Shown one piece after another: positions 36,596 through 55,098 of a DNA stretch of 64,000 nucleotides; the stretch's first letter is position 1, and each line of letters starts with the position of its first letter. Position numbers and translations under genes: made by a program. A model generated the notes under the pieces. It saw only the letters and a list, made by a program, of their open reading frames with translations. It did no database searches and was not told where the DNA came from. Source of the DNA: a bacterium (GTDB lineage Bacteria > JAGOBX01); contig JAKPEO010000129.1 in assembly GCA_029551925.1 (NCBI GenBank), positions 1 to 64,000 on the forward strand, written 5' to 3'.

Positions 36596-37855
36596 CTATT
36601 TTTTCTCATTCCCGCGCAAGCACAGCGCGCAGGAAAATGCAAAATAAATCATAGTCGCTAAAACATTAAAATCTATACTAAAAACTAAATTAATCAAAAA
36701 ATACAAGACTAATAATTTTAAAAAAAGATTTTGATTGTTTCTAAAAATAAAATTTTTAAGGAAAACAATTAAAGTTGCTAAAAATAATAAAATACCGATT
36801 ATCCCTAATTCGCATAAAATTTGAAGATAATAATTATGAGTATATCTAACCGCATTGCCAAATTTTAAAATATAATCCGGATAATATTTTCCAAAATTAC
36901 CATAGCCGATGCCTATCAATAAATTATTTGATTTCCAAATATTCAAAGCCGAAATATAATTAGCGATATGATATTTAATTGATGAATGATAAAAATATTC
37001 GAGCCCGCGTAAATAAATCATCACTATTAAAATAAAAAATAAAAGAAGCAACGAAAACAATAAAATTTTAAAATTTCTATTTTTTGATGTAAAAAAATGA
37101 AATGCCGCGCAAATTAAAATAGCACCAATCATACTTACAATAACAGATACTGTTTTAGTATAATATATTCCTAATATGCAAACAGCCGTGAAAAAAAACA
37201 GAAGATTTTTTTTAAAATTGTCAAATTGCATTTTTTTTAATTCTTCCGGCATAACCGCCAAAATAATTAAAATTGTTATAACAAGATAAGACGCTAATGT
37301 ATTTGGCAATACAAACACAGAATAAATTCTGCCGCTTTTTAATCTTGCTATTGCTTCTGGTTTTAAAATATCAGAATAATTAGCGAGTATAAAATCAAAT
37401 CCGTAAAATTTTTGATAAAAGCCCCAACATAAAATTATAATTGTAAAAATAATAATAACACGCATTATATATTTTAATTCAAACGGCAGACAGCAGCAAT
37501 ACACAAAAAAAATCAAAGCGCTCAATAATTTATATATCTCAAAATAATTACAGGTATTAATAAAAATATTAATTAGTAAATAAGACACATTAGCAAAAAT
37601 CAAAATTAACAAAATAATGACATTTTTTTCTAATTTTATTTTTTTGTATTTTTCAGACAATAAGATAAAGATAACAAATAAAACAATTTGCAGATAAAAA
37701 AAATATTTTAAAATTACAAATCTCGTAGGATTATACGCAGCTTCTTCAAAATTAAAAAATAATGCTAATCCTAATAAAAAATAGATACTTAACGAATAAG
37801 ATAAATCGATTATTTTTTTTTTATCAAAATTATCATTTTTTTTTGTGGTTGTCAT
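36596..37855 (-). CDS. O-antigen ligase/polymerase family (WaaL/Wzy_C-like) membrane protein
   Basis: Multi-TM; RYTHNYYLQILCELGIIGILLFL loop typical of Wzy_C. Confidence 0.82.
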   Translation of the reverse strand: MTTTKKNDNFDKKKIIDLSYSLSIYFLLGLALFFNFEEAAYNPTRFVILKYFFYLQIVLFVIFILLSEKYKKIKLEKNVIILLILIFANVSYLLINIFINTCNYFEIYKLLSALIFFVYCCCLPFELKYIMRVIIIFTIIILCWGFYQKFYGFDFILANYSDILKPEAIARLKSGRIYSVFVLPNTLASYLVITILIILAVMPEELKKMQFDNFKKNLLFFFTAVCILGIYYTKTVSVIVSMIGAILICAAFHFFTSKNRNFKILLFSLLLLFFILIVMIYLRGLEYFYHSSIKYHIANYISALNIWKSNNLLIGIGYGNFGKYYPDYILKFGNAVRYTHNYYLQILCELGIIGILLFLATLIVFLKNFIFRNNQNLFLKLLVLYFLINLVFSIDFNVLATMIYFAFSCALCLRGNEKK

Positions 37856-37871
37856 TATAATTGGTAAAATT

Positions 37872-39146
37872 TTATTTCATTAATTGTTCGGCGATTTTCT
37901 GAACTTGCTCATAATATTTAACTGCATTAGTAAAATCTTTTTTAGCATAATATGCGTCGCCGAGCAATTTCAAGTATTCGATGTTTTCCGGCTGCGCTTT
38001 AATGAGCAGTTCGAAGATTTTAATAGCTAAATTAGTATTGTTTTCTTTTAGCGCTAATTTCCCTTGATTTTCGAGCGCGTTAATATCAAGTATTTCAAAT
38101 TCCGGCAAAGTAGTCGGCTGAATGATAGTATCTGCTTTAATATCAGTTGCCTTTTCTTTTTTAGTTTCATCATCTGCAATTTTTTTTGCAGGTTCACGCT
38201 TCGGCACATCAAACATTAGCGGCTTAAATGCAAAACTTAAAGTAATATAATGTAATGCGCCCAATTCCGAAAATGCATCATAAGCGTATTGTATTCCGTA
38301 ATTATCGCGCATATAAGCCAAACCTAAACTAATAGAATGGTCAATAGTTTTAATGCCGTTATAACCGAACATAAAATGCAGATTATCGTCGAATCTAAAA
38401 TTGAAGCCCATATTTAGTTTTGGTGCAACTGTCCCGATTTTTTTCAAATCTGCAAGAAAATCAAATCTGAATATTTGATATTTCAAACCCACAGAATAGA
38501 CATCAGATATTTTTTCACTTTCATTAGTAAATTTTAGTGAACCGCCTAAATTTAATGCGCTGACTCCAACATCAAGAAAATCAATAAAAAAATTTTTTAT
38601 TAAAATTCCAGCGTCAAACAAAAAAGTTGAAGATTTATAATCTGCAATATTTTCAGAATAATTTTTCAAATTAAAACCGTATAGAAAATTTTTATTTTTA
38701 AAAGATGACGATAGCCCGAATTGTAGAGCTGAATATTTTTTAGTATTATTAGTAAGTATATAATCGCGGCCATCTATTAATGTTTGATTGATTTTTCCAG
38801 CGTCTAATCCCGCTAAAAACAACGATAACCGCGCTTGCTGATTAATATTAAAATTTTTGAATTCATTAGAATATACGAGCAGATAAGAATTAACATCTTC
38901 CGGCAATTTATTATATGCAGACAAAAAATTTCTCTCGTGCTCTTCGGCTATAACAGCGGCAGGATTATATAAGACCGCGTTAATACCTGATGCCTGCGCA
39001 GTTACAGCGGAAAGCGCAATATGTTCAGCAGTATATCCGATAGTAAGCGGCACGCCCGCGCGAAATGCTAATACGGCAGTTTGCAAAAAAATCAATGCAA
39101 ACAATATAAAACAAATTAATTTACAATTTGTAATTTTTTGATACAT
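37872..39146 (-). CDS. PorV/UPF0164-like barrel with C-terminal TPR
   Basis: AVTAQASGINAVLYNPAAV; C-terminal TPR LALKENNTNLAIKIFELLIKAQPENIEYLKLLGDAYYAKKDF. Confidence 0.7.
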   Translation of the reverse strand: MYQKITNCKLICFILFALIFLQTAVLAFRAGVPLTIGYTAEHIALSAVTAQASGINAVLYNPAAVIAEEHERNFLSAYNKLPEDVNSYLLVYSNEFKNFNINQQARLSLFLAGLDAGKINQTLIDGRDYILTNNTKKYSALQFGLSSSFKNKNFLYGFNLKNYSENIADYKSSTFLFDAGILIKNFFIDFLDVGVSALNLGGSLKFTNESEKISDVYSVGLKYQIFRFDFLADLKKIGTVAPKLNMGFNFRFDDNLHFMFGYNGIKTIDHSISLGLAYMRDNYGIQYAYDAFSELGALHYITLSFAFKPLMFDVPKREPAKKIADDETKKEKATDIKADTIIQPTTLPEFEILDINALENQGKLALKENNTNLAIKIFELLIKAQPENIEYLKLLGDAYYAKKDFTNAVKYYEQVQKIAEQLMK

Positions 39147-41179
39147 TTATAATCATCCGCTTCAATAATAACATAATAAAATCCAGATGCCGCGCGATTG
39201 CCTTTTTTATCGCTGACATTCCATTGAAAATAATTTTTGTTTGTATTACGCTGTTCAAATACTACAAAACCTGCAAGATTAACAATAGTGATTTTAGCAT
39301 TAGCCATTTTTTTACCGCTAAAATAAATACCGCTGCCGTCGTCAGCGCCAGTATAATGTCTGCCTGTCTTGATATTGCCGTCATTAGGAATAAACGGATT
39401 AGGATATACAAAAATATCGTCATTATCAAAATATGGAATGCTGAATAGCGCATAAATCGAAAAATGTTGAAGATCAGTAGAAATATTAGCAATGCCATTA
39501 TCAATAGAATATAGATAATCTCCGCCGATTTTAGACCAGTTGCGATAATTATCGTCTAACTTGAATATCGCAAAACTGCGATTTTTAAAATTATCAATAT
39601 TTGGCGCAAGCGCATAATTAATTCGTAAATTATCAAATGCAAAGGTTTGACGATTCAAATTATTTTTGGTTTTCAAATCAAACAATTCAAAATCTAATAT
39701 CGTATAACTCAAGTCTTCGTATAGCGAAATATTTGGTCTGATAACAGGTAAAAATTGCGATTGCGCGCGATTAATAAAAAGAATATACGGCGTTTCAGCG
39801 TAGTCCACGCGGTTAATAGTAATAGTCAAATCGTTAAAATCATTGCGCAATCTTAAAGATACATCGAATAAATTATTATTATTAAATTTAAGCGCCGCGC
39901 TATTTCTGAAAGTTACAAAAGTATCATTACTTACTAAATTTATAAAAGTGTCAATCACGCAAATTTTAGTAAATGTCTCGCTGTAATTTCCGCGATAATC
40001 ATCAACCGCTAATTTTACAAAATATACGCCGCTTGTATCAGCTGAAAATACAGCGGTCATTTTATCAGCGTCTGTTATTTGCGCATTTTCCGTGTTATTT
40101 AATTTAGTCCAGCGATAACGCAAAAAATTTTTGTTGCGCGCTATTGTGCGTTCGGCTGACAACGCGACAGTTTCGTCGATAGTCGTAAAATATGGGCCGC
40201 CAGCATCAGAAATAATAAATCTGCTCAACTGTTGGTCAGATTGAGTATAATCGAATGTCCGCATAAAATAATAGCCGTTATCGCCAAAAATAAAAATAGT
40301 ATCTTGATTTTCATACATAAAAATTTTGTTGAAATCAAAAGTATGCGGATAATTCGGAATATCTAATTTTTGCCAATTTGCAGGATTAGGCGCAGTAAAA
40401 TATATATTGCCATTATCGCCTACAGCCCAGCCGTTATTATAAGAAGAAAAATATAATGAATTAACATTAAAATTAAAAGCATATAAAAACGCCCAGCGCG
40501 TTGGACCTTCGATAGTTTGATATAATTTATTATCATCAGTCACAGCAAACCATAAATAATTATTATAACAATATACCTTTTTAAAATTATATGGTGTATT
40601 AGTCAACGTCCAATCAGCGCCAGCATTACTTGTCATTAAAATATGTCTATCGCCAATCACTAATCCATTATTATCATTAAAAAAATAAATAAAATTAGAT
40701 GTTAAAATTCCTTCATATTGTTTTATCCAAGTTTGACCATTATTTGTAGATTTTAAAATTATATTATTTGTTCCGACAGCATAGATAGCATTTGAGGTAA
40801 CCGCAATATCTTTTAAAATAATATTAGATGATATGTGCGCTGTCGGCGAACGATTAATCCAAGTCACGCCGCCATCCAATGAAATAATAATCGTCTGCGT
40901 GTCGCATAATACTGAGACAATAGAAGCGTTATTATTTACGGCGATTTTTTTTATATTCAGATTAATGCCTGTATTTTGATTAGTCCAAGTAATGCCCGAA
41001 TCATTAGTAGTTTTTATAACTCCGTTATCAGCGCAGAACCAGCCGCGCTGTCCTAAAAATACGGCGTCGTTAATATTTAACGCCGTGTTATCAATAAAAC
41101 GCGTCCACAAAAAATTAGCGTTTACTGATAATTTCAAAATCAAAATTAAAAATATCAAAACTAAAAATTTTCGTTTCAT
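39116..41179 (-). CDS. Secreted YCF48-like beta-propeller/PKD-type protein with C-terminal sorting-like (FlgD/T9SS-type) domain
   Basis: Repeats like GWFCADNGVIKTTNDSGITWTNQNTG; C-terminal VYPNPFIPNDGN...GFYYVIIEADD. Confidence 0.72.
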   Translation of the reverse strand: MKRKFLVLIFLILILKLSVNANFLWTRFIDNTALNINDAVFLGQRGWFCADNGVIKTTNDSGITWTNQNTGINLNIKKIAVNNNASIVSVLCDTQTIIISLDGGVTWINRSPTAHISSNIILKDIAVTSNAIYAVGTNNIILKSTNNGQTWIKQYEGILTSNFIYFFNDNNGLVIGDRHILMTSNAGADWTLTNTPYNFKKVYCYNNYLWFAVTDDNKLYQTIEGPTRWAFLYAFNFNVNSLYFSSYNNGWAVGDNGNIYFTAPNPANWQKLDIPNYPHTFDFNKIFMYENQDTIFIFGDNGYYFMRTFDYTQSDQQLSRFIISDAGGPYFTTIDETVALSAERTIARNKNFLRYRWTKLNNTENAQITDADKMTAVFSADTSGVYFVKLAVDDYRGNYSETFTKICVIDTFINLVSNDTFVTFRNSAALKFNNNNLFDVSLRLRNDFNDLTITINRVDYAETPYILFINRAQSQFLPVIRPNISLYEDLSYTILDFELFDLKTKNNLNRQTFAFDNLRINYALAPNIDNFKNRSFAIFKLDDNYRNWSKIGGDYLYSIDNGIANISTDLQHFSIYALFSIPYFDNDDIFVYPNPFIPNDGNIKTGRHYTGADDGSGIYFSGKKMANAKITIVNLAGFVVFEQRNTNKNYFQWNVSDKKGNRAASGFYYVIIEADDYKCIKKLQIVN

Positions 41180-41184
41180 AAATT

Positions 41185-43563
41185 TTATTGTAAATTTCCC
41201 GCTTTTGATAATGTAATATTATTAGTTTTATAAATAAAATTCAATTGATTTGTTGAATAATAAAAATTTTCTAAAATTTCAGTGGTATTAGCAGTATTAT
41301 TTTTAAAAATAATATTATTATTTGCTACTTCAAATGTGCCCTGCTCTTCTTGCATAGTTGATAAATTAACAATTTTCATAGATAAATCCGAATAAAAATA
41401 AAATGCATATTGCATATTTTGCCATATACCGATTAATTTGCCGTCTACTAATGAAATGTTAAATGTCTGTATATCTGTGCCGCCAGTTTGTAAATTTACA
41501 ACTTTTATTTGTACTTGTGTGCTGTCATTTTGAGCATTTACAGTATTTGGTATTTGCCAGATAATATAGCCATTATGCGGATTAATGCGCATATTATTCG
41601 GTGCTTTGATAAGCGAATACATTAATTTTCCGCTGTTCGGCACAGACAGCGCTGATGCAGAATACCGATAAGTATAATTTGTAAAAGCAGTGTATTTTGG
41701 AGTTGATACAAATCGCGTAGTATCAGAATAAATATAAAATTTAATAGCATTAGACCAATCGCTTAATTCTGTATGATACGGGGCTTCTGAATAATATGCC
41801 GCAATCCGATAATAATAATAACTATTAGGAAAATATGTGGTATCTACTTTAATTTCATTTGTATTATAAACAATTGTATCCCAATGAATAGTGTCAAAAC
41901 TTTGATTATCCGAAATTTGAATTTGATAATATTGATTATAGTCATTTAGATTAAAAACAAAAAATACATTTTCTGCGTTCATACCTGCATTATTAGTCGG
42001 AAAAGAAATATCAGTATTTTTAATAACAGCGCGTAGAGTTTTGAAATTATTGCCGTCAAAGCCAAATGAATAAATTCCGTTTCTTTCATAAAATGAAATA
42101 TTAAATTTTTGTTTGTAATTAGAAATCTGAAACGGCATATTTATTTCAATATTAAGGCGGCGCAGCGCTTTATAATTAAAGAAATAACCATTTTCATAAG
42201 AAGTAATTTTTGTGATATATTGATATTGATTATATTTAGTAATATAATTTTTTTTATATTCAAAGACTTTTGGAAAAAGAAGAACAGGTATCGGAAATTC
42301 AAAAGATTGTCCTTTTTCTACAATTTTTTCAATATACAGTCCGTCTGATTTTAAGCGAAATCTAATATAATTAGTAGAATTAGCAAAATATAAAAATGTA
42401 TCGCAGTCAGTTAATTTTGTATATTCACGCACTCTATAAGTTGCGGAATATTGATAAAATGGGAAAAACTCATAGTTCTCAAAATACACAAATTTCATAT
42501 CTTCAAACAAATAAAAATAATCGCTTAACGGAAACACAATTTTGTCAGAAGTTTTAAAGCGCCAAGTGAACGATTGAACAGCAGAACCATTAGCATTCAA
42601 TAAATTCGAATCAACTGTCACTGTAATGTATGTGTCAGCCGGAAAAGAATCATTATTATTTATGATAAAAACAAATTTATCAGCATTAGCGTTCCATCTA
42701 AAAATCGGAGTATTTTTAAAAAAAATTGACGGCTGAAATTTCAGCCATTGAGACCAATGTATAGAAGTATCCATTTTATCTGAAAAGCATATTGTTATAA
42801 TCGGCTGAACGCCGTTTATTGCTCCGTCAGAATTAGGAGCTGGCTGCACCCAAGTAATATAATTATTTGTTTTAGACGAATACACGCGCGCAAAGGCTGC
42901 AGCGTTATTTTGGCTATTATAATTTTGATAATCTGTAATAAATGCCAAAGTATCAGCGCATAAATTTTTATAAAATTCTGAAGTTAAAATTGCGGTGTCA
43001 TTAAACCCGTCAATATACCAATCGTTTAAAACATAGCGATTTTTCAATAATCGCCTGTAATTTGAAATGAAAGTTGTAATATTATCAACTTTAACATTTA
43101 CGATTTTTTGACAGGGCGTATCAGAAAAAATTGTAAATTCATTTTCTAATCTATAATTATTTTTTTGTGCGATTATTCTAATATTATTTTTAGTGTTAGT
43201 AATAAGCGGCGCTGTTAAACTAAATTTTCCGTTTCTGTCTGTTTCAACTATATAATGCAAATTATTAATAAAAACTTCGACATTTGTAAAATCAAATTTT
43301 ATTGAATTACGGCTAATATTTATATTATCTTGTTTTGGCGAATAATAAGGCAAAAGATTATTAACAGAATTAAGATATTCGTCTAAATCATTCGGCGAAT
43401 ATTCAACAACAGCGTTAATAACAATTTCATCTGGCGTAATCACGCGAGTGAAATTATAATCATTTCCACAATGCAAAAAAAATAGCAAACTGCAAACTAT
43501 TAAAAAAAAATTATAAAAAAAATTGATTTTTTTCAAGTGTCGGATTTTAAGTATTTCCATCAT
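41185..43563 (-). CDS. Putative lipoprotein with Big_5/FN3-type Ig domains
   Basis: N-terminal hydrophobic segment FFLHCGND (loose lipobox); PIITICFSDKMDTSIHWSQW...SFTWRFKTSD; PHNGYIIWQIPN. Confidence 0.55.
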   Translation of the reverse strand: MMEILKIRHLKKINFFYNFFLIVCSLLFFLHCGNDYNFTRVITPDEIVINAVVEYSPNDLDEYLNSVNNLLPYYSPKQDNINISRNSIKFDFTNVEVFINNLHYIVETDRNGKFSLTAPLITNTKNNIRIIAQKNNYRLENEFTIFSDTPCQKIVNVKVDNITTFISNYRRLLKNRYVLNDWYIDGFNDTAILTSEFYKNLCADTLAFITDYQNYNSQNNAAAFARVYSSKTNNYITWVQPAPNSDGAINGVQPIITICFSDKMDTSIHWSQWLKFQPSIFFKNTPIFRWNANADKFVFIINNNDSFPADTYITVTVDSNLLNANGSAVQSFTWRFKTSDKIVFPLSDYFYLFEDMKFVYFENYEFFPFYQYSATYRVREYTKLTDCDTFLYFANSTNYIRFRLKSDGLYIEKIVEKGQSFEFPIPVLLFPKVFEYKKNYITKYNQYQYITKITSYENGYFFNYKALRRLNIEINMPFQISNYKQKFNISFYERNGIYSFGFDGNNFKTLRAVIKNTDISFPTNNAGMNAENVFFVFNLNDYNQYYQIQISDNQSFDTIHWDTIVYNTNEIKVDTTYFPNSYYYYRIAAYYSEAPYHTELSDWSNAIKFYIYSDTTRFVSTPKYTAFTNYTYRYSASALSVPNSGKLMYSLIKAPNNMRINPHNGYIIWQIPNTVNAQNDSTQVQIKVVNLQTGGTDIQTFNISLVDGKLIGIWQNMQYAFYFYSDLSMKIVNLSTMQEEQGTFEVANNNIIFKNNTANTTEILENFYYSTNQLNFIYKTNNITLSKAGNLQ

Positions 43564-43573
43564 CTAAAATTCT

Positions 43574-44839
43574 TCAATCTCCCAAAATCTTTAATGCCTG
43601 ACGAGCATTTATATTTGATGGGTCTAATATTAATACCTTTTTATATTCTTGTATTGCTCTTATACGGTCGCCTAATTTTACAAAACTATAAGCGAGCCAT
43701 AAACGAGCATTAATATTATTTTCATCTAATTGCACAGCTTCTTTAAAACTTAACATAGCATTGAGATATTTCCCTTCTTGAAAATTACGATATCCATCTT
43801 TAATATAATCTTCGACAGCTTCTTGTATTGTTTCTTTTGATTTTTTATCGGTAAATAATTTAAGTTTTAACAATGACTCTTTGCCTTTGACTTTTTTATC
43901 AACTCCGAATTTAAAATTCATAGACATTTTATGGGCACTACTGAAATCGCCGTAATCTTCATAAGCATAATCAACAGCAAAATTATCAGCATTAAAACCT
44001 ACGCCAAAAGTCAAACCAGAACCGGCATCATTAACTGTATTAAACGCTCCGCGCAGCGCAAAATTTTTTAATATTTTATATTCTGCCGCTGCGACCATAT
44101 CCAACTCTTCGTCTTTACTATAAATTAATTCGCCGTTCAATAATAAATCATCAATAAATTTAAGAGTTAATCCGCCGCGTATCTGCATTGGCAATTCTTC
44201 GTCTGTCTTTGTATATTTAAAACGCGTGCCTATATTTTTTATAACAGCGGCGATATCTGCAAAACTAAAAATTTTATAAATTACGCCCGCGTCAAGCGCT
44301 AAAGCATTAGCATTATAATTATAAATACTCTGCGATATATATTTAAAATTAAAACCGAACCGCACATCATCGACATTAAGAAACGCATAAGTCAACATAA
44401 GCATTAAATCAGACCCGTCAAAATTTTCATTTGTTTTAGCGCTGCCATTATTATATTCAGGATAAACAGTTACAGGTTCATCGCCGTATTTTCCAATTAT
44501 AATTGAAGCAGCATAATAATGTTTTTTCTTTTTAGAAGGAAAACCAAAAGTAATATTACTATGCGAAATACTCTGCGCTAATCTGTTATACATAAACGCT
44601 ATATTTGATTCTTTCAAATCAGCAGCGCCAGCTGGATTATAATAAACGCTAAAAATATCGCCAGTCACAGCGGTATAAGCGCCGCCGAGCGCTAATGGGC
44701 GAGCGCCAGCTCCTAATGTTACAAATTCTGCAACTTTCGAGCCGCCCTTACCAGCTGCATAAATAGCAGCTCCGTTAAATATAAAAGTATAGATGGCAAT
44801 AATAATAATTACAAATTTTTCTTTCGCTTTTAACTTCAT
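43574..44839 (-). CDS. PorV/UPF0164-like barrel with C-terminal TPR
   Basis: AEFVTLGAGARPLALGGAYTAVTGDIFSVYYNPAGAADL; C-terminal TPR GDRIRAIQEYKKVLILDPSNINARQAL. Confidence 0.82.
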   Translation of the reverse strand: MKLKAKEKFVIIIIAIYTFIFNGAAIYAAGKGGSKVAEFVTLGAGARPLALGGAYTAVTGDIFSVYYNPAGAADLKESNIAFMYNRLAQSISHSNITFGFPSKKKKHYYAASIIIGKYGDEPVTVYPEYNNGSAKTNENFDGSDLMLMLTYAFLNVDDVRFGFNFKYISQSIYNYNANALALDAGVIYKIFSFADIAAVIKNIGTRFKYTKTDEELPMQIRGGLTLKFIDDLLLNGELIYSKDEELDMVAAAEYKILKNFALRGAFNTVNDAGSGLTFGVGFNADNFAVDYAYEDYGDFSSAHKMSMNFKFGVDKKVKGKESLLKLKLFTDKKSKETIQEAVEDYIKDGYRNFQEGKYLNAMLSFKEAVQLDENNINARLWLAYSFVKLGDRIRAIQEYKKVLILDPSNINARQALKILGD

Positions 44840-44844
44840 ATTTT

Positions 44845-47800
44845 TTATCTAATAATTGCTAATTTTCCTGTAAATTTATTTCCATTTTTATTTACTAAAT
44901 ATAAATACCAGCCGGATGCCACTTCTGTGCCGCTATTATTACGAGTATCCCATTGCCATTCAAATTTTTCAGGATTAGTATTTATAAATTTTTTGACAAG
45001 TTGTCCTTTCAATGTATAAATTTCTATTTTTGTTCCGTAATTTATACCTTCAAATATAATGCCCGATCGTCTGTCTCCCGGACTATACGGCACTCCGTGT
45101 TTATCATTTTTTGACGGTATAAACGGATTAGGATATACTATAAAGTCGTCAAATGAATTGTCAAGATTGCGCGGGTCTGTATTCGGCGCTAACATAAACA
45201 TAGTAAAATGCCGCGTTTTAAATTCTATATAATTTTTATCTGTACTTCTATTTATAATAGCGCTATTGTCAAGTTTGCGCCACGGCTCTGTAATATTTTC
45301 GCGATACCAGACAGTTTGCCAATTTTCATTTATTTTCGGACGAACTGCATTATCAATCCAGCCGTCATTATCTTCATCTTGGTAATACAAGCGCAATATC
45401 ACATCAGTATCTAAATCTGTTTGCTCGCCGGTTGTCAAAATATTTTGTATTGTCGGCGGATTTGTAATTTGCGCAATTGTATCAATAATAACAACAAAAT
45501 TTGGATTACGCAGACCATAAGGATCAACAGTTAAAGCAGAATTAAAATTCGCTAATTTATCGGGAGGTAAAATAGTAAGAGTAATCGGCGCGAAATTATT
45601 AGCGTTCGCAGAAAATGCAGTGTTCGGAATAAACGCTTCAATTTGAGTTTTTATAGCCGAACTGTCAATACTATTAATACCTTGCGCAGACGCTATTACT
45701 TTATTTGTTCCATTAATATCAGTAAAAATTTTTTGATAAACAACTACTGCCTGCGTTTCTGTCCGCGTATAATAATCAGCATTTTGTAAATCATTAATAA
45801 TATACGCCATAATAGATATTGGATTCGGCTCGCTGATATTTGTTCTATCAGTTGCTACGCTTCTAATCAAATATGCTGTGTTTTTTTGAAGATTAGCAAT
45901 ATTCCATTCAACAGATAATTTATTATCAGGTATTGTGCGATTGGTATTGATAGGATTACTGCTATTATTCAATATCATTGTATCCCAATTTACATTACCC
46001 AATTTACGATATTGTAATAACACTTTCGATAAATCAGTATATTGTCCTTTTTCAATATTGACATTAAATAAAATTTTATCGCCATACACTTTAAAGCCAT
46101 TAACTAAATTAATTTTTGTTTCTACTAATGCTCCGTTATTTTGGCGCGGATCAACTACCACATAACCAGATTGCGCTGTGTCAGCATAAACATTATTTTT
46201 ATTTAATGATAATACAGTTATCAAATATTCGTTATTTGGCGCTAAATTATTAAGCGTAACATTATTCGTCTGCGAATCAACTGTCGTATAAGGATTATCT
46301 AAATTAATAGCATTCAAACCTGACGCATAATTTACAATAAACACAGAATAATTTGTAATAGTTGTATCATTCAATAATGTCCAATTTAATGAGATATTAA
46401 GATTATTAACTTGCGCTGTTAGATTGTATACTGGTTTTGGACGATATGTTACATCGACCACAAAAGTCTGTAAAACAAAAGCATTGTTGTTATCGCGCAC
46501 ACGCACAGTAATTGTATTTGCGCCGACCTGCGATTCAGCAGGAGTCCAATCTATACGCGCTGTTGTATTTGTTAATTTTGTAATTGTCATATTAGCCGGC
46601 GCTGTAAGTAATGTATAGGTCAATGTATCGCCTACATAATTAATATCGCTGTCCGAAGCGATGACAAGATACGAATATTGTCTATTAACCACTGCATTTA
46701 ATACAGGTGTTGAAATAATCGACGGAGTATCATTTATATTTCTGACATTAACAGTAATTAATTTTGTATCGGTAAATATTTTATTTTGGTTATTTTCATA
46801 AATTAATGTAAGCAGCAATGTATCATTTCCAGTAAAATCAGCGCGCGGCGTGATAATAAGATAAGTGTCATTATTATTTTTGTAAAATGTTGTTTGCAAA
46901 TTTTGTCCTGCGCTTGCAGACCAAATAATATTAGTTTCGTTGATTGTTGATGTCAATAATGTATAGGTTTGAGAATCTTCCCAGATAGATAAATAATCGG
47001 TTTCGCCGCCTGTCAAAATTTTAAAATAATTTATCGTGATAGTATCTGCTGCTTGCTGATTAAATTTGTCAATCGCTACCACTTTTAGTTCGTCGCCTGG
47101 CATACCGATAGTCAAATTATACTGCCAATTGAATTTTAAAGCAGTGTCAGGATTAGCGTATATTGCTGTTTTTAATTCATTATTCAAATAAATAAATATG
47201 CTGTCGCCTGTAAATAAATTTTCACAAGTGCCTGTTACCAATATTGTCTGAGCAGAAGTATTAATATTATCTTGCGGCGCTGTAATTTCTACGATCGGCG
47301 TTTTATATTTAGGCATAAAACTCCAATTTTGCCAGATGCCATTATTATTAATATCTCTCACATAGAATTCAATATTTACAGTTTCGCCGTGCGCAAAATC
47401 ACCCGCGCTGTAAACCAACATATAATCATCAATGATTTCAAGTTCGTCAATAATTCTTACGCCATTAACATAAAATAATATTGAATTTACATCTATACCA
47501 TAAGCATCATCAAATTTCACTGATATAATCGGATTAGCAGAAGGGACCACCGAGCCATTAGCAGGTATAATATCATATACATTCGGCGCAGTCATATCAA
47601 ATCTTAATCTAAATCTATAATCTTCTGTTTGATAAACATTACCAACATTATCAATATTTGATACCTTCCAATAAATCCAATCGCCTTCGCGTAATAAACT
47701 TGTATCTATCACTTGACTTAATCTCGCCATTGTATCGGTTGTTTCTAAATAAAAATTATTTGAAAATGTAGCAAGAGTATCAGCATAAATAATATATTTT

Positions 47801-50800
47801 TTCAAACCGCTCAAACTATCATAAGCGGCAGACCAACGCAATAATTCATTGTATTCTGCATTTGCATAATTATAACCCGGATAAAGTAAAGTTGCTGGCG
47901 TCGGCGAAAATACTGTGTCTTCTTTTATCTGTATATAAAAAGTATCTTTTAATCCTGCTTTATCTGTTGCAATAATTGTAATAATAGTATCACCGCGCAG
48001 AACGCCGATATTTACATAATTATATGTATAATTTGATGTATAAGAAGTATAGCCGTTTGAATTGTATGCCGCCGCATAATAAATAGAATAAAAATTATTA
48101 TCGCTGACTTTGACTTTTATTGATAAATTCATCGAGTGATTGCCGTTTATATAAATCGTATCAATATAGGTTGTGTCTAAATTAATATTAGTCAATGGCT
48201 GATTATTCCAATATGCGCTGTATGACGGCTCAGTGGAAGTAATGGTTACTTCTTGTATTATCGGCGCTGTAAAATCAAAATTTATTGCGTTGGTATTTGT
48301 ATAATAAAATGGATTGAGATTTGAAATATTGTCTTCCGCCGCTATTGTCCAATAATATTTATTTTCAGACACAGATAAATCGGCAGTAATCGTATTAGTA
48401 TCAGCAGATATTTCTGTTATAAAAAATATAGTTGAAAAATCTGGCGAGCTGCTGATTAATAAATAATATTTTTTTATGTTGACTGTATCAGTAATATTAT
48501 TAAATTCAAATCTAACTCGCGTATCAGATAAATATATATCATTAGCAGGACTGGTTAAATTTACAAGTTGTACAAATGTATCCTGCACAAAATAAATCGT
48601 ATAATAATCTGAATCTCCGTCATTTGAATCATAAACAATTATAGATACTTCAACTCGCGAATATGTATTGCGCGGAATGCGATAAATAATAGTATCAGTG
48701 CGGTCGTGCTCTACCGCAGAATAGGTAAATGTTCCTGCATTAGTAGCAAATGCCGCGCTATACGCTAATGTATCGCCTGTCGGATTATCGCCGTTTGACC
48801 ATTTTATAGAAAGCGGTATTTCTAAATACCACTGCCCGCCCACTGAATCGCCTGCTAAATTTGAATTATTATAATAAATTGTATCGCTCTTACTCGGTTT
48901 TAATGAAAATACATAATCGCCAATACTATTGCCGGCTATTGTATAATATGGTTTTGCGTTGCCGTAAGTAAAATCACCATCATTAGCCTCAGCGCTTATT
49001 CTCAATATTTTCGGCAATTTATTCGCTAAAATAAAAGTATTATATGTAATGTCAGTATCATAATTGAGAACATTATCATACGCTACTACTCGCCAAAAAT
49101 AAGTGTCTGGATATAAATCGCTGTAAGGCATCGGAATAGTGGTATTCGCTGTTATTTCCGAATAAATTAAATTGCCTTCGTTAAATAGAATATCGCTGTA
49201 TATTTCAATTTTATAGTATCTTACGCCAGCTAATGCATCAGTTGAAATCGACCAAATAAAATAAGTATCATCTGTTATATTCGCATTATTTACTGGCTGT
49301 AATAATGATACAACAGCAGGCGCTGTCTTGTCTTCTTTAATATTTATTTTATAACTCGTCTGATTATTGTTTTTATCAATAGCATACAAATAAATTACTG
49401 TGTCGCCTGAATTAGCGGAAATATTATATTGTAAAATCCACGAATCTGCGCCGTTTGTATCTTCTGGAGACATACCATAATTATTCGAACCGCTTACTTT
49501 ACTCTGCCCAATGTTATCAGACCAGATTATATCAAATATCAAACTCAAATTTTTGTTGCCATTAATAATTATTGTATCTTCGTTATTAGCCAATATGCCT
49601 AATTTATCAACATATAACGAATCATTAGTATTTGTTTTAACATACACGCTATTTATTTGCGGAGCAGTATAATCTACTCTAAATGCGCGAGTTTCAGAGT
49701 TTGTCGCGCTGCTGATATTATCTACATTATCTACTAACCGCGCGCGCCAGTAATATTCGCCTTGGTTAACAAGAACAGTTGTCGTATTCGCAGTATTAGA
49801 AATTATCAATTGCGTGTCAATCTCACTAAAATTAGCTTGCCGTGAAATTTCCAATAAATAATGTTTTATTCCTGATTTATCGTCTGATGCTGACGACCAT
49901 TGAAATTCTATTAAATTATTTAATATCGCAGAATCATTGTTCGGCTGTTGTAATGCTATGGTCGGCGCAAAAGTATCGCTAATCATATATATTAACGCTG
50001 TATCCGTTTTGCTTTGATAATTTTCAACTGTTATTGTGATTTGCGTATCAGCAGCGCCTGAAACATTATTATAAGTCAACCGCCACGGCGCTGAAGTAGT
50101 AGAGACATTTGTATTACCAAAATTATTTGAGCCCAAAATTAATTTCTTTTGCGAGAGCGAAGACCAATCTATTTCAAATGTTAATGATTGACTGTAATTG
50201 CCATTAAAATAAGTTGTGCCCGCTGCTATAGTCGAATCTGCAATAATTAGCGGAGTGTCATTAGTCCAATAATAATTCGGCATTGAACCGCTGTATATTG
50301 AAATAGTATTAATATACGGAGTATCAATCGCATAATTAACATTTACAATATAAAAACCTTGCGGGTCAGAATAATAATTTTGCGAATCTTTTGCTGAAAT
50401 TGTATACATATAATTTGCCGGAGTTAAACCTGTATCTGTATAAGCCGAAGCGCCACCGGATAATTCCGCAAATGAAATTTTATCATCATAACTTATTATT
50501 TTAATATCATCTACAAAAAAGCCCTCGCCGTCAAACTGTAAATTTTCATTTAAACCATAACTGAATCGTAAATATACGCTCTGTCCAGCAGAATCTGATA
50601 AATCGATTGTTTCATATTCTTCGGATATTTCACGATCATAATAACTTTTTAATTCTAACCAGTTATTAGCGTCAGCGCTAATAGCGATTGTTGCGCTGTC
50701 GCCGTTAAGTATGTCTGCATAATACCAATATGTTAATAATATTTTTTTACCGGCAGGCAAATTTATCGGAGCGCTTGTCCGCATTGTCTTTGTAGTATTA

Positions 50801-53800
50801 AATCCCTCGCCAGATGCAAAAGAATATTGTCCTGATTTTTTATATTTTGTTGTTAATGAAAAACCATTTAGTATCCAATTAGCGCCGCCTTGTTCTGCAT
50901 TATCTGAAAATAGTAAATTAACATTATTATATCTTTCTAATAAATACGCGCTTATGCCGTCAATATCTTTTACGCCAGACCAATTTATTATCAAAGTAGA
51001 GTCCGGTATAGTAGAAGATAATTCTGCCATTTGAAGATTATATGGACCTTGATCTTTGCTTGTCCAGAAATATCTCAAAAATTCTGACCATTTATTATTT
51101 TTACCCAAAGTCGAAACTTTGGAATATACTGGATTATAATATTCAAACGGAAAATAAATTGAAACAAATCTGCAATTCACATAATCTTCGCTGGTTGCGT
51201 TCGGATTAGACCTACGGTTAATTACAAAAGCATCTATTGCGCTTTTTACATTATTCGCTAATAAATTTGCCGCTGCGCTTAATGATTGACTGCTAAATTC
51301 ATTCATATAAAAATATAAATCTACGCTGCCTGGCTCATCGCCCGGGCCATCTTCGTCCTCTATTTCTTGCGGATTACTTACTATATCCGCTCTGATATTT
51401 GCTGCAACAGCCATATCGTTTTGCGATTTTACTAATTCATCAGCAAAAGTATTAATTCTGTCAAATAAATTTTGGACAGCGCTTAAATTATACGCAGCGT
51501 GAACAAATTCTTCATTCTCATATGCTTCGCTGTATTTATAAAAATGTCGTTCAACTATTTGAGATGCTAAATTTGCAGCGGTGTAAGTATTAATATTATT
51601 CTTCAAAGAAGTTAATATAGTATTATAAGGCCAGCCGCCGGCAGGAATATTTTTTGACGATGCAGTCATATAATATGCTAAATCTTTTAAATCATATGCG
51701 GCTTCTATTGTGCCTGCTATCGGAGCATCAAATCCAATCACATCAAATTTTATTCCGCTTTGTTCAAGCGCCGCTTTAAAATCAGCCATTCGCATAGTTA
51801 CTGGTCCATTGCCGTCGTATGTCCAATCTGTTACAATCGAACGCTTAACCGATGTTTTTTGTTGATTATTACGCCACACTGCCTTTGATATTAATCTATT
51901 CCATATAACCAACATATAACTATCAGCAGGATAATTATTTTTTGTCCAATTAATAAAATCTAATAACACATTAGAATCAGCCATATTCACTTCGCGTCCG
52001 CCAGTCCCGTCGCCCCAATTGCTTATTGCATTAGTTTCTGTCGGCGTCATATTTTGCGTAATATAAAATCTGTGCGTTTTTTCCCAATCGCCGTAATCAG
52101 TTGAATTTCCGGGCGTCCTGTCTAATTGCGCTACTATATTCATATCATTATTAGAGCCAACTTCTGCTATTTCTAAAAAATCAACGAGCGCATCAGCTTC
52201 GGTCACATTATCAGCATTAATATAAACAAGCACAGTCCATTTTTTTCCTGAACGCAATGTGAATTTCCCGCTATTTAGTAAATCAGTATCAGGTCCAGTG
52301 CCGATTATCTGTGCTGTGCAGGAATTTATTTGCACTAACGCTTGAAAATCTCTGTTAAATGTCGCATTTGAATTTATGTCTATTGTAATGAGAATATTTG
52401 CTACGCCTGATAATAATCTAATATTCGCAGAATTAGTGTCCCATTGCGACTGCGCAGCGTTCCAATTTAAAATTCCAATATATGTGTCATTTGCTGACCA
52501 GCGTAAATCGCCATCAGCGTCAAACCATAATTTGACATTGTCTAAATCACTGTTTGTCATTACACCATTATTTTTGACAACAAAATTTGTAATCGTATCA
52601 GACGGAATATTGCCAATAACTTTTAACGCCATTACTGTTACATTAGTATCGCCGCGTAAAACATCGGCAGATTGCAATTCGCTAATTTTTGTGATTTTTA
52701 AATATGTTTCCTGTATTGTTTTTATTGCGCTTTCATTTTTATTCGTCGCCGGTCCGACAGGCGCGCGAACAGACGCTATCGTATTCTGCGGAACGCTCGC
52801 AACAAAAGTATCATTAACATTTGCATTGCTGTTTATATCTATTGTCACTATAATACGCGCAGCGCCGGAAACTAATGGCAGTAAATTCGCAGCAGAAGTA
52901 TCCCACTGCGCCTGCCCGGCATTCCATTCAAGATTACTTATGAAAATTTCATCACCCACAAATTGCGCGCGATTACGATTCGGCGCTAACCATAATTTTA
53001 CTTTACTAATATCCGCGTTATTTGCATTTCCTAAATTTTTTATTGCAAAATTTGTAATTGTATCATAATCAAGATATGTTGTAATATCAGCAATTAATAC
53101 GGGACTATTTTGTTCGCCTTTTATTACATTTTCTGTTTGAACTGCGCTGTCGATAATTACTACATCGCAGCGCGGCACTGATATTGATTTAAAACCGTAT
53201 ACTCCTCCCCAATTATTTTGATTATCCTGTCCTTCAATTGTATATAAATATCTGCCGGCTGCTTTGTCGCTAATCTGATAAGAATCGGCGCTCGGAGAAA
53301 TTGTCTGGCTTATAAAACTCGCGCCAGAATAAGCCCAAATTTTTATATCATCAATAAAATAGCCGTCGCCGTCAAAACCTAATTCATTATTAAATGTATT
53401 ATAAAATTCTAAATTTACGCGCTGTCCGGCAAATTGCGTTAAATCTACTACTCGATATTCTTCTGATATGCTTTTATCTGAAATGCTGTCAATATTAATC
53501 CCATTTACTTTTAAACCGCCGTTATCGCCAGCATTGTCAGAATAACACCAATAAGTCATTAATATGCTTTTGGTTGATGGTAATTCTATTGCGCCGCTTG
53601 TTATTTGCTTTGTTTGATTATAACCGCTACCAGATGAAAAAGAATATGACCCCTGTTTTTTGTGCAGCGCATTTAATGAAAAACCGCTGTTTGTCCAATT
53701 ATTGAAATTTTCGGCATTGTCAGAAAAAATTAATTCTGCATTGCGATATTCTGTCAATCGATAATATTTTAAACTATCAGCATCTTTGCCAGCAGTCCAC

Positions 53801-55098
53801 GAGATAGTATAATTCCCACTCGCCGATGAATCTGATAAATCCGCCATTGTAATGCCAAAAGGCCCTTGACCCGTATTATAAGACCAATATCTCCTTAAAA
53901 AATCAGCCCATTTGGAATCGTTACCAAATTGTATAGCATTTGTATAAACTGGATTGTAAATATTTTCAGGAAAAAATATTGCTACGCCATAAAAATTAGG
54001 TCCGGCTTTTGCCGTCCGTCGCTCGATTATAAAATCATCTATTGCCGCTTTTACTGCGGAAGCAGCTCCTGATAATGAAGGAATATTCGCGCTTATTAAA
54101 TTCGCAAAATGATATAAATCTATACCTGTATTATTTGGATAATCATCTTGGTCGTCCATTTCTTGAACATTTTGACGAGCTTGCTTAATTTTTAGCCATT
54201 CATTTGAATTTATTAGAGCATCGCTAAAATTGTCTATCGCTGTTTTTAACGCTGATATTTTATCAACTTTAAATGCCGCTTGCGTTACACCTTCACTATA
54301 GTTTGAATCATATTCGATTACTACATTAGCAGCAAATGAATCTGCTTTGATATTCGCCGCGCCGCTAATATAATTTAATACAGGAGTATAAGGCCAGCCG
54401 CCGCCAGGTTCAGTAATTTGCGAGGCAATTACTACATTTACAAATTCCTTAACTTCATAAACTACTTCTACCATTCCAGCAAGACATATATCAAAACCAA
54501 TAACATCAAATTTTATTCCTTCGCTGTTTAATTGCTGCAATGCTTGGCGGAATTCAGGCATTTTCATACCAGGATGTCCGGGCGTGCCGTCATCCCAAAT
54601 TAATGCTTTGGTTAGTTTTGGTAAATCAGCAACTTGATTGTTTTGTCTTCTCCGCCAGCCGCCGCCATGATTCCACATTACTAATATATAACTATCAGCA
54701 GGATAATTTGTAATAGCCCAGCGAACAAATTTCACTAATTCTTGCGTATCAGCCATATTTACTTCACGGCCTCCACCTTGACCATCACCCCAATCGCTTA
54801 TCGCGTTCGCTTCAGTGGGCTGCATATCTTTTGTTATAAAAAATCTGTGAGTTTTAGTCCAATTGTCATATAAATCTGATTCGCCTACTGTTCTGTCAAA
54901 TTGAACGACTATATTGATAGTATCATTCGAGCCAATCTCAGCCATTTCCATAAAATCTGTGATACCATCGCCTTCTAAATTATTATCCCCGTCTAAATAG
55001 ACCATAAATGTCCATTTTTTTTGAGCATATAAATTTAGCGGAAATATCACTAAAAAGATTAGAAAAAAGAATAATACTTTTATTTTTTTATTTTGCAT
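44845..55098 (-). CDS. Giant (3417 aa) secreted protein: two clostripain (C11) domains, jelly-roll and Ig/FN3-type repeats, C-terminal sorting-like domain
   Basis: Signal peptide; C11 motifs LVMWNHGGGW and GFDICLAG in copy 1; parallel degenerate motifs in copy 2; C-terminal VYPNPFIPSKNDKHG...ASGWYLYLVNKNG. Confidence 0.88.
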   Translation of the reverse strand: MQNKKIKVLFFFLIFLVIFPLNLYAQKKWTFMVYLDGDNNLEGDGITDFMEMAEIGSNDTINIVVQFDRTVGESDLYDNWTKTHRFFITKDMQPTEANAISDWGDGQGGGREVNMADTQELVKFVRWAITNYPADSYILVMWNHGGGWRRRQNNQVADLPKLTKALIWDDGTPGHPGMKMPEFRQALQQLNSEGIKFDVIGFDICLAGMVEVVYEVKEFVNVVIASQITEPGGGWPYTPVLNYISGAANIKADSFAANVVIEYDSNYSEGVTQAAFKVDKISALKTAIDNFSDALINSNEWLKIKQARQNVQEMDDQDDYPNNTGIDLYHFANLISANIPSLSGAASAVKAAIDDFIIERRTAKAGPNFYGVAIFFPENIYNPVYTNAIQFGNDSKWADFLRRYWSYNTGQGPFGITMADLSDSSASGNYTISWTAGKDADSLKYYRLTEYRNAELIFSDNAENFNNWTNSGFSLNALHKKQGSYSFSSGSGYNQTKQITSGAIELPSTKSILMTYWCYSDNAGDNGGLKVNGINIDSISDKSISEEYRVVDLTQFAGQRVNLEFYNTFNNELGFDGDGYFIDDIKIWAYSGASFISQTISPSADSYQISDKAAGRYLYTIEGQDNQNNWGGVYGFKSISVPRCDVVIIDSAVQTENVIKGEQNSPVLIADITTYLDYDTITNFAIKNLGNANNADISKVKLWLAPNRNRAQFVGDEIFISNLEWNAGQAQWDTSAANLLPLVSGAARIIVTIDINSNANVNDTFVASVPQNTIASVRAPVGPATNKNESAIKTIQETYLKITKISELQSADVLRGDTNVTVMALKVIGNIPSDTITNFVVKNNGVMTNSDLDNVKLWFDADGDLRWSANDTYIGILNWNAAQSQWDTNSANIRLLSGVANILITIDINSNATFNRDFQALVQINSCTAQIIGTGPDTDLLNSGKFTLRSGKKWTVLVYINADNVTEADALVDFLEIAEVGSNNDMNIVAQLDRTPGNSTDYGDWEKTHRFYITQNMTPTETNAISNWGDGTGGREVNMADSNVLLDFINWTKNNYPADSYMLVIWNRLISKAVWRNNQQKTSVKRSIVTDWTYDGNGPVTMRMADFKAALEQSGIKFDVIGFDAPIAGTIEAAYDLKDLAYYMTASSKNIPAGGWPYNTILTSLKNNINTYTAANLASQIVERHFYKYSEAYENEEFVHAAYNLSAVQNLFDRINTFADELVKSQNDMAVAANIRADIVSNPQEIEDEDGPGDEPGSVDLYFYMNEFSSQSLSAAANLLANNVKSAIDAFVINRRSNPNATSEDYVNCRFVSIYFPFEYYNPVYSKVSTLGKNNKWSEFLRYFWTSKDQGPYNLQMAELSSTIPDSTLIINWSGVKDIDGISAYLLERYNNVNLLFSDNAEQGGANWILNGFSLTTKYKKSGQYSFASGEGFNTTKTMRTSAPINLPAGKKILLTYWYYADILNGDSATIAISADANNWLELKSYYDREISEEYETIDLSDSAGQSVYLRFSYGLNENLQFDGEGFFVDDIKIISYDDKISFAELSGGASAYTDTGLTPANYMYTISAKDSQNYYSDPQGFYIVNVNYAIDTPYINTISIYSGSMPNYYWTNDTPLIIADSTIAAGTTYFNGNYSQSLTFEIDWSSLSQKKLILGSNNFGNTNVSTTSAPWRLTYNNVSGAADTQITITVENYQSKTDTALIYMISDTFAPTIALQQPNNDSAILNNLIEFQWSSASDDKSGIKHYLLEISRQANFSEIDTQLIISNTANTTTVLVNQGEYYWRARLVDNVDNISSATNSETRAFRVDYTAPQINSVYVKTNTNDSLYVDKLGILANNEDTIIINGNKNLSLIFDIIWSDNIGQSKVSGSNNYGMSPEDTNGADSWILQYNISANSGDTVIYLYAIDKNNNQTSYKINIKEDKTAPAVVSLLQPVNNANITDDTYFIWSISTDALAGVRYYKIEIYSDILFNEGNLIYSEITANTTIPMPYSDLYPDTYFWRVVAYDNVLNYDTDITYNTFILANKLPKILRISAEANDGDFTYGNAKPYYTIAGNSIGDYVFSLKPSKSDTIYYNNSNLAGDSVGGQWYLEIPLSIKWSNGDNPTGDTLAYSAAFATNAGTFTYSAVEHDRTDTIIYRIPRNTYSRVEVSIIVYDSNDGDSDYYTIYFVQDTFVQLVNLTSPANDIYLSDTRVRFEFNNITDTVNIKKYYLLISSSPDFSTIFFITEISADTNTITADLSVSENKYYWTIAAEDNISNLNPFYYTNTNAINFDFTAPIIQEVTITSTEPSYSAYWNNQPLTNINLDTTYIDTIYINGNHSMNLSIKVKVSDNNFYSIYYAAAYNSNGYTSYTSNYTYNYVNIGVLRGDTIITIIATDKAGLKDTFYIQIKEDTVFSPTPATLLYPGYNYANAEYNELLRWSAAYDSLSGLKKYIIYADTLATFSNNFYLETTDTMARLSQVIDTSLLREGDWIYWKVSNIDNVGNVYQTEDYRFRLRFDMTAPNVYDIIPANGSVVPSANPIISVKFDDAYGIDVNSILFYVNGVRIIDELEIIDDYMLVYSAGDFAHGETVNIEFYVRDINNNGIWQNWSFMPKYKTPIVEITAPQDNINTSAQTILVTGTCENLFTGDSIFIYLNNELKTAIYANPDTALKFNWQYNLTIGMPGDELKVVAIDKFNQQAADTITINYFKILTGGETDYLSIWEDSQTYTLLTSTINETNIIWSASAGQNLQTTFYKNNNDTYLIITPRADFTGNDTLLLTLIYENNQNKIFTDTKLITVNVRNINDTPSIISTPVLNAVVNRQYSYLVIASDSDINYVGDTLTYTLLTAPANMTITKLTNTTARIDWTPAESQVGANTITVRVRDNNNAFVLQTFVVDVTYRPKPVYNLTAQVNNLNISLNWTLLNDTTITNYSVFIVNYASGLNAINLDNPYTTVDSQTNNVTLNNLAPNNEYLITVLSLNKNNVYADTAQSGYVVVDPRQNNGALVETKINLVNGFKVYGDKILFNVNIEKGQYTDLSKVLLQYRKLGNVNWDTMILNNSSNPINTNRTIPDNKLSVEWNIANLQKNTAYLIRSVATDRTNISEPNPISIMAYIINDLQNADYYTRTETQAVVVYQKIFTDINGTNKVIASAQGINSIDSSAIKTQIEAFIPNTAFSANANNFAPITLTILPPDKLANFNSALTVDPYGLRNPNFVVIIDTIAQITNPPTIQNILTTGEQTDLDTDVILRLYYQDEDNDGWIDNAVRPKINENWQTVWYRENITEPWRKLDNSAIINRSTDKNYIEFKTRHFTMFMLAPNTDPRNLDNSFDDFIVYPNPFIPSKNDKHGVPYSPGDRRSGIIFEGINYGTKIEIYTLKGQLVKKFINTNPEKFEWQWDTRNNSGTEVASGWYLYLVNKNGNKFTGKLAIIR

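Follow-up and report, generated by a model that had tools for sequence, protein, structure and literature searches.

The closest described relatives of the locus treated here are the C11 proteases clostripain and PmC11. The activity of PmC11 involves His133, Cys179 and the S1 residue Asp177, with cleavage at Lys147, for which the clostripain counterpart is Arg190; self-processing at Arg or Lys, together with an S1 Asp, is established for both enzymes (PMC4850288). A precedent for proteases paired with catalytically lost relatives comes from Clostridioides difficile, where the pseudoproteases CspA and CspC act upstream of the protease CspB (PMC6636752; PMC12880746) and the pseudoprotease state of CspBA is limited to one family (PMC6636752). 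A keyword search of open-access papers turned up no description of an active C11 protease with a fused C11 pseudoprotease.

In the window, by which we mean the whole 64,000-nucleotide stretch of contig JAKPEO010000129.1 that was analysed, a single open frame encodes a giant exported protein, P0001, whose modules run in the order signal peptide, C11, jelly roll, two small beta modules, C11, jelly roll, Ig/fn3 stalk and tail:

44845..55098, minus strand: giant exported protein P0001, open frame with an ATG start, 3417 aa, signal-peptide-like N-terminus MQNKKIKVLFFFLIFLVIFPLNLYAQ
53860..55020, minus strand: C11 copy 1, aa 27-413; Peptidase_C11 match at 53896-55002 in the genome-level search
53137..53871, minus strand: jelly-roll (InhA-like MAM) module 1, about aa 410-654; PF20773 match under the cut-off
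52246..53070, minus strand: two related beta modules of ~130 aa each, separating the C11 copies, about aa 677-951
51040..52245, minus strand: C11 copy 2, aa 952-1353; Peptidase_C11 match at 51070-52227 in the genome-level search
50305..51054, minus strand: jelly-roll module 2, about aa 1349-1598
45170..50304, minus strand: Ig-like/fn3 repeat stalk with fn3, He_PIG and Big_9 matches
44848..45160, minus strand: C-terminal T9SS-type sorting-like domain (YPNPFIP...SGWYLY...KLAIIR); FlgD_ig 0.0027, 18.1 bits, below the cut-off of 27

The initial annotation of this DNA proposed two C11-type domains in the protein, and profile and structure searches agree. Pfam finds Peptidase_C11 in two stretches of P0001 (1.9e-87), with copy 1 scoring 172.9 bits over profile positions 1-356 of 359 and copy 2 scoring 137.6 bits over positions 1-358; the two copies are about 42% identical, far above chance, and NYPADSY, IKFDVIGFD and GGWPY are present in both. 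The AlphaFold2 models of both copies have clostripain as their best PDB match (9cip for copy 1, pLDDT 91.6; Foldseek E 6.8e-23 for copy 2, pLDDT 87.8, pTM 0.91), and the prediction thus shows a C11 fold retained in copy 2. A low-confidence loop in the copy 2 model (model residues 122-135) gives no sign of a mutation effect, since the copy 1 model has low confidence in that loop too. Duplication of the jelly-roll modules, which had been supposed, is confirmed, with 41% identity across 239 aa, and the two beta modules between the C11 copies share 42% identity with one another.

Copy 1 matches PmC11 at each of its functional residues. Its dyad consists of His144 (codon 54667-54669, in NHGGGW) and Cys205 (codon 54484-54486, in GFDICLAG), its S1 residue is Asp203, and a basic residue precedes ALIWDD to give a possible self-processing site at Lys164-Ala165 (LTK-ALIWDD). 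We infer that copy 1 is most likely a self-activating protease that cleaves after Arg or Lys at the cell surface.

Copy 2 differs at both dyad positions. The catalytic His144 aligns with Arg1068 (LVIWNR, codon 51895-51897), as the initial annotation had it; that annotation also placed every motif correctly, but it read the nucleophile as replaced by Ala. In the ungapped alignment of GFDICLAG with GFDAPIAG, Cys205 stands opposite Pro1126 (codon 51721-51723), and Ala1125 (codon 51724-51726) faces the Ile of copy 1. The pairing of an intact with a catalytically dead domain in one exported protein is borne out, with His/Cys at the dyad sites of one copy and Arg/Pro at those of the other, and copy 2 is, as judged from its sequence, a C11 homologue and not a C11 peptidase. 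The alteration extends to all four active-site loops (the His, Cys, WDD and TEPG loops), while the S1 residue (Asp1124) and a basic, P1-like Arg1086 at the self-processing position are retained. A pair of frameshifts behind the altered His loop was rejected as an explanation: NHGGGW does not reappear in either of the alternative frames, and these are interrupted by stops. The stop-free state of copy 2 is itself weak evidence, because a frameshift there would cost the protein its stalk and tail as well. The initial annotation's proposal that copy 2 is retained for binding, autoinhibition or scaffolding may hold, but the constraint seen in the missense pattern concerns the fold alone.

We surveyed the two sites in 77 loci that had been picked out by scanning genomes of bacteria and archaea and whose frames were then searched with a profile. 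Among the 82 C11 domains with both sites readable, 72 have His and Cys, 7 have His and Ser, and 3, copy 2 included, have lost both; a further double loss (L081, Tyr/Ser) was split by the aligner and falls outside this count. Among the surveyed loci, only P0001 and its orthologue (L007/L010) have a single frame with two complete C11 domains. It is highly improbable that copy 2 is catalytic through another nucleophile or dyad: some other C11 domains do carry Ser for Cys with the His kept, but in copy 2 Arg and Pro occupy the two sites, there is no Ser at or beside the Cys site (GFDAPIAG), and the sole Cys, residue 1309, lies in the C-terminal part, distant in sequence from the catalytic site.

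Several other C11 proteins came to light in the survey. In Armatimonadota (L026, L035, L043, L049, L050 and L062), the catalytic His is kept and Ser stands at the site of the Cys nucleophile; at least two groups show this pattern, possibly as a change of nucleophile or as a shared inactivation. Adjacent C11 genes in Thiotrichaceae and Thiomargarita combine an intact with a degenerate member (L075:7045-11770, His/Ser; L081:8091-13186, Tyr/Ser), suggesting stepwise loss. A 2049-aa acidobacterial protein (L085:9899-16048) has a C11-like domain in which the dyad residues are replaced by Phe and Pro and the Pfam match is slightly below the cut-off, and the third C11 protein encoded by the window's genome (L009:4213-6120, minus strand) ends in a C-terminal helix-hairpin-helix (HHH_3, 1.6e-18), which is odd for an exported protease.

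The orthologue decides whether a dead copy 2 belongs to the architecture. It is a protein of 4290 aa (JAGOBX010000041.1) from the same GTDB family, with ~41% identity to P0001 across a 2839-aa match that takes in most of its length, and both of its C11 copies contain NHGGGW and GFDVCLAG, leaving the His/Cys dyad intact twice. It follows that the window's lineage alone lost the copy 2 dyad, assuming loss and not independent gain. The initial annotation, which asked whether homologues share the loss in copy 2, had itself listed homologues that keep the catalytic residues there as refuting its idea; such a homologue is what we found, and a conserved design is not supported. Its alternative, a strain-specific mutation, holds insofar as the loss is lineage-specific; the changes in copy 2 span several active-site loops, and so they do not represent one strain-level mutation. 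Searches for relatives from genus to phylum level never returned more than a single additional genome, which was always this one; the phylum is represented in the collection by just these two genomes, and only two such giant proteins are known. The database record of L010 is labelled Ca. Dependentiae, yet its 3.8 Mb genome shares the GTDB family of the window's T9SS-bearing genome, and the label may be wrong.

The orthologue has two extra small beta modules ahead of its copy 1, and the duplicated unit was therefore probably two modules, a C11 domain and a jelly roll. The tree rejects neither the grouping of the two second copies (p-AU 0.37) nor that of copies 1 and 2 of the window's genome (p-AU 0.24); the same position of the units in both proteins favours a duplication older than the split of the two genomes.

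An orthologue with both dyads bears on the possibility that copy 2 is a regulatory pseudoprotease, one that would control copy 1 by autoinhibition, allostery or substrate capture after binding either that copy or the substrates of copy 1. Such a role would suit the retained Asp1124, Arg1086 and predicted fold, and the CspBA fusion of an active protease with a lineage-specific pseudoprotease is a direct precedent (PMC6636752; PMC12880746). We nevertheless regard it as unlikely, since the orthologue indicates that the architecture needs no dead partner and conservation has been lost in several active-site loops of copy 2, beyond the dyad. The fuller proposal, that copy 2 is a C11 pseudoprotease in one chain with an active C11, recruited in the window's lineage to regulate copy 1 or to capture substrates on the surface, with the orthologue preserving the state before the loss, is a speculative one to which we give still less weight.

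Over 23 columns in the four active-site loops, two of which were picked after inspection, identity is 87-91% among the three intact copies and 39-48% between them and copy 2, while over the remainder of the C11 domain the corresponding values are 48-52% and 41-43%. At the active site, copy 2 matches the orthologue's copy 2 in 9/23 columns versus 20/23 (p 0.002); in fixed windows around the dyad, with the dyad itself left out, the counts are 7/12 versus 11/12 (p 0.15). Taken alone, copy 2 is not significantly worse at its conserved active-site columns than at conserved columns elsewhere (p 0.10 and 0.07), and its active-site signal comes from the comparison with the intact copies. We read these results as release of the active site of copy 2 with the fold largely kept.

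Ongoing decay would have a redundant copy 2 drifting and persisting for one reason only, namely that a broken frame would cost the protein its stalk and export tail. The terminal branch of copy 2 is about twofold longer than those of the other copies (1.0-1.2 versus 0.41-0.52), conserved positions outside the active site are kept somewhat less often than in copy 1 (114/187 versus 133/187, p 0.049), and a conserved fold Gly has become Phe at column 339. Long free drift is opposed by the 42% identity of copy 2 to the orthologue and by its confident C11 model, and the jelly roll attached to copy 2 does not clearly appear accelerated, with modules 1 and 2 having 46% and 45% identity, respectively, to module 1 of the orthologue. 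On balance, decay strikes us as a rather doubtful account, albeit a serious one.

The reading we prefer, and to which we give an even chance, is that of a T9SS-type surface protein built from a duplicated unit, in which copy 2 lost catalysis and became a folded, non-catalytic module. The unit of two small beta modules, C11 protease and jelly roll would have been duplicated to yield this protein. Copy 1 would have kept its dyad, S1 Asp and basic residue before ALIWDD, the set expected of a self-activating Arg/Lys-specific protease, whereas in the window's lineage the catalysis of copy 2 would have been lost via changes across several active-site loops. Copy 2 would now be a folded part of the surface stalk that no longer catalyses and most likely acts as a spacer, either structural or for binding.

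The gene neighbourhood fits such a destination, with the following genes on the same strand:

43574..44839, minus strand: PorV/PorQ-family outer-membrane protein with TPR, 5 bp downstream of P0001; NF033709 126.4 bits, cut-off 90
39116..41179, minus strand: exported Ycf48/BNR and PKD protein with Por_Secre_tail
37872..39146, minus strand: second PorV/PorQ-like protein with TPR; T9SS_PorQ 5.2e-8, below the cut-off

The tail of P0001 aligns with that of its neighbour P0004, which matches Por_Secre_tail with the cut-off reached together with its neighbours, and elsewhere in the genome further large proteins end in tails of this kind. The genome also encodes the SprA translocon (TIGR04189 206.5 bits, cut-off 200). 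The PorU (C25) sortase was not found in the genome, which is 86% complete, and no control genome gave a match either. The architecture, the T9SS-type tail, the adjacent PorV genes and the SprA match point to a surface protein built like the gingipains. P0001 heads a same-strand row at 36596-55098 (minus strand) that continues with a PorV-family protein, an unmatched lipoprotein-like protein, the Ycf48/BNR protein with the T9SS-type tail, the second PorV-like protein and an O-antigen ligase. Promoter and terminator scans of the locus gave nothing informative.

P0001 and its orthologue form a before-and-after pair, in which the second protease domain is apparently intact in one protein and disabled in the other within the same architecture, and they allow a direct test of whether a catalytically lost domain becomes a regulator or a mere structural module. 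Set against known systems, the locus compares as follows:

(i) As in clostripain and PmC11 (MEROPS C11, clan CD), both copies of P0001 match the family and the fold, and copy 1 has the dyad, the S1 Asp and the basic self-processing residue. Characterised members have one C11 domain, whereas P0001 has two, one of them without the dyad.

(ii) In the gingipains RgpA and Kgp of Porphyromonas gingivalis (C25, clan CD), too, an exported protease precedes repeated adhesin-type modules and an Ig fold, and the chain ends in a T9SS C-terminal domain (PMC5266723), to which the T9SS-type tail of P0001 would correspond. P0001 differs in that its protease belongs to C11 and not C25, in a second domain of protease origin, in the length of its Ig/fn3 stalk and in having no long propeptide; C25 was not found in its genome, which is 86% complete. 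With P0001, a surface architecture resembling that of the gingipains would reach family C11, in a barely sampled phylum (two genomes here).

(iii) CspBA of C. difficile shares the fusion of an active protease to a pseudoprotease, with the inactive state confined to one lineage (PMC6636752). Its domains differ in being subtilisin-like serine proteases of spores that are separated by YabG and have a known role.

(iv) The Thiotrichaceae pairs also place an intact C11 beside a paralogue that lacks the Cys (L075) or both residues (L081), but as separate genes and in an unrelated lineage. Together with P0001, they suggest that C11 proteases gained dead paralogues beside intact ones more than once.
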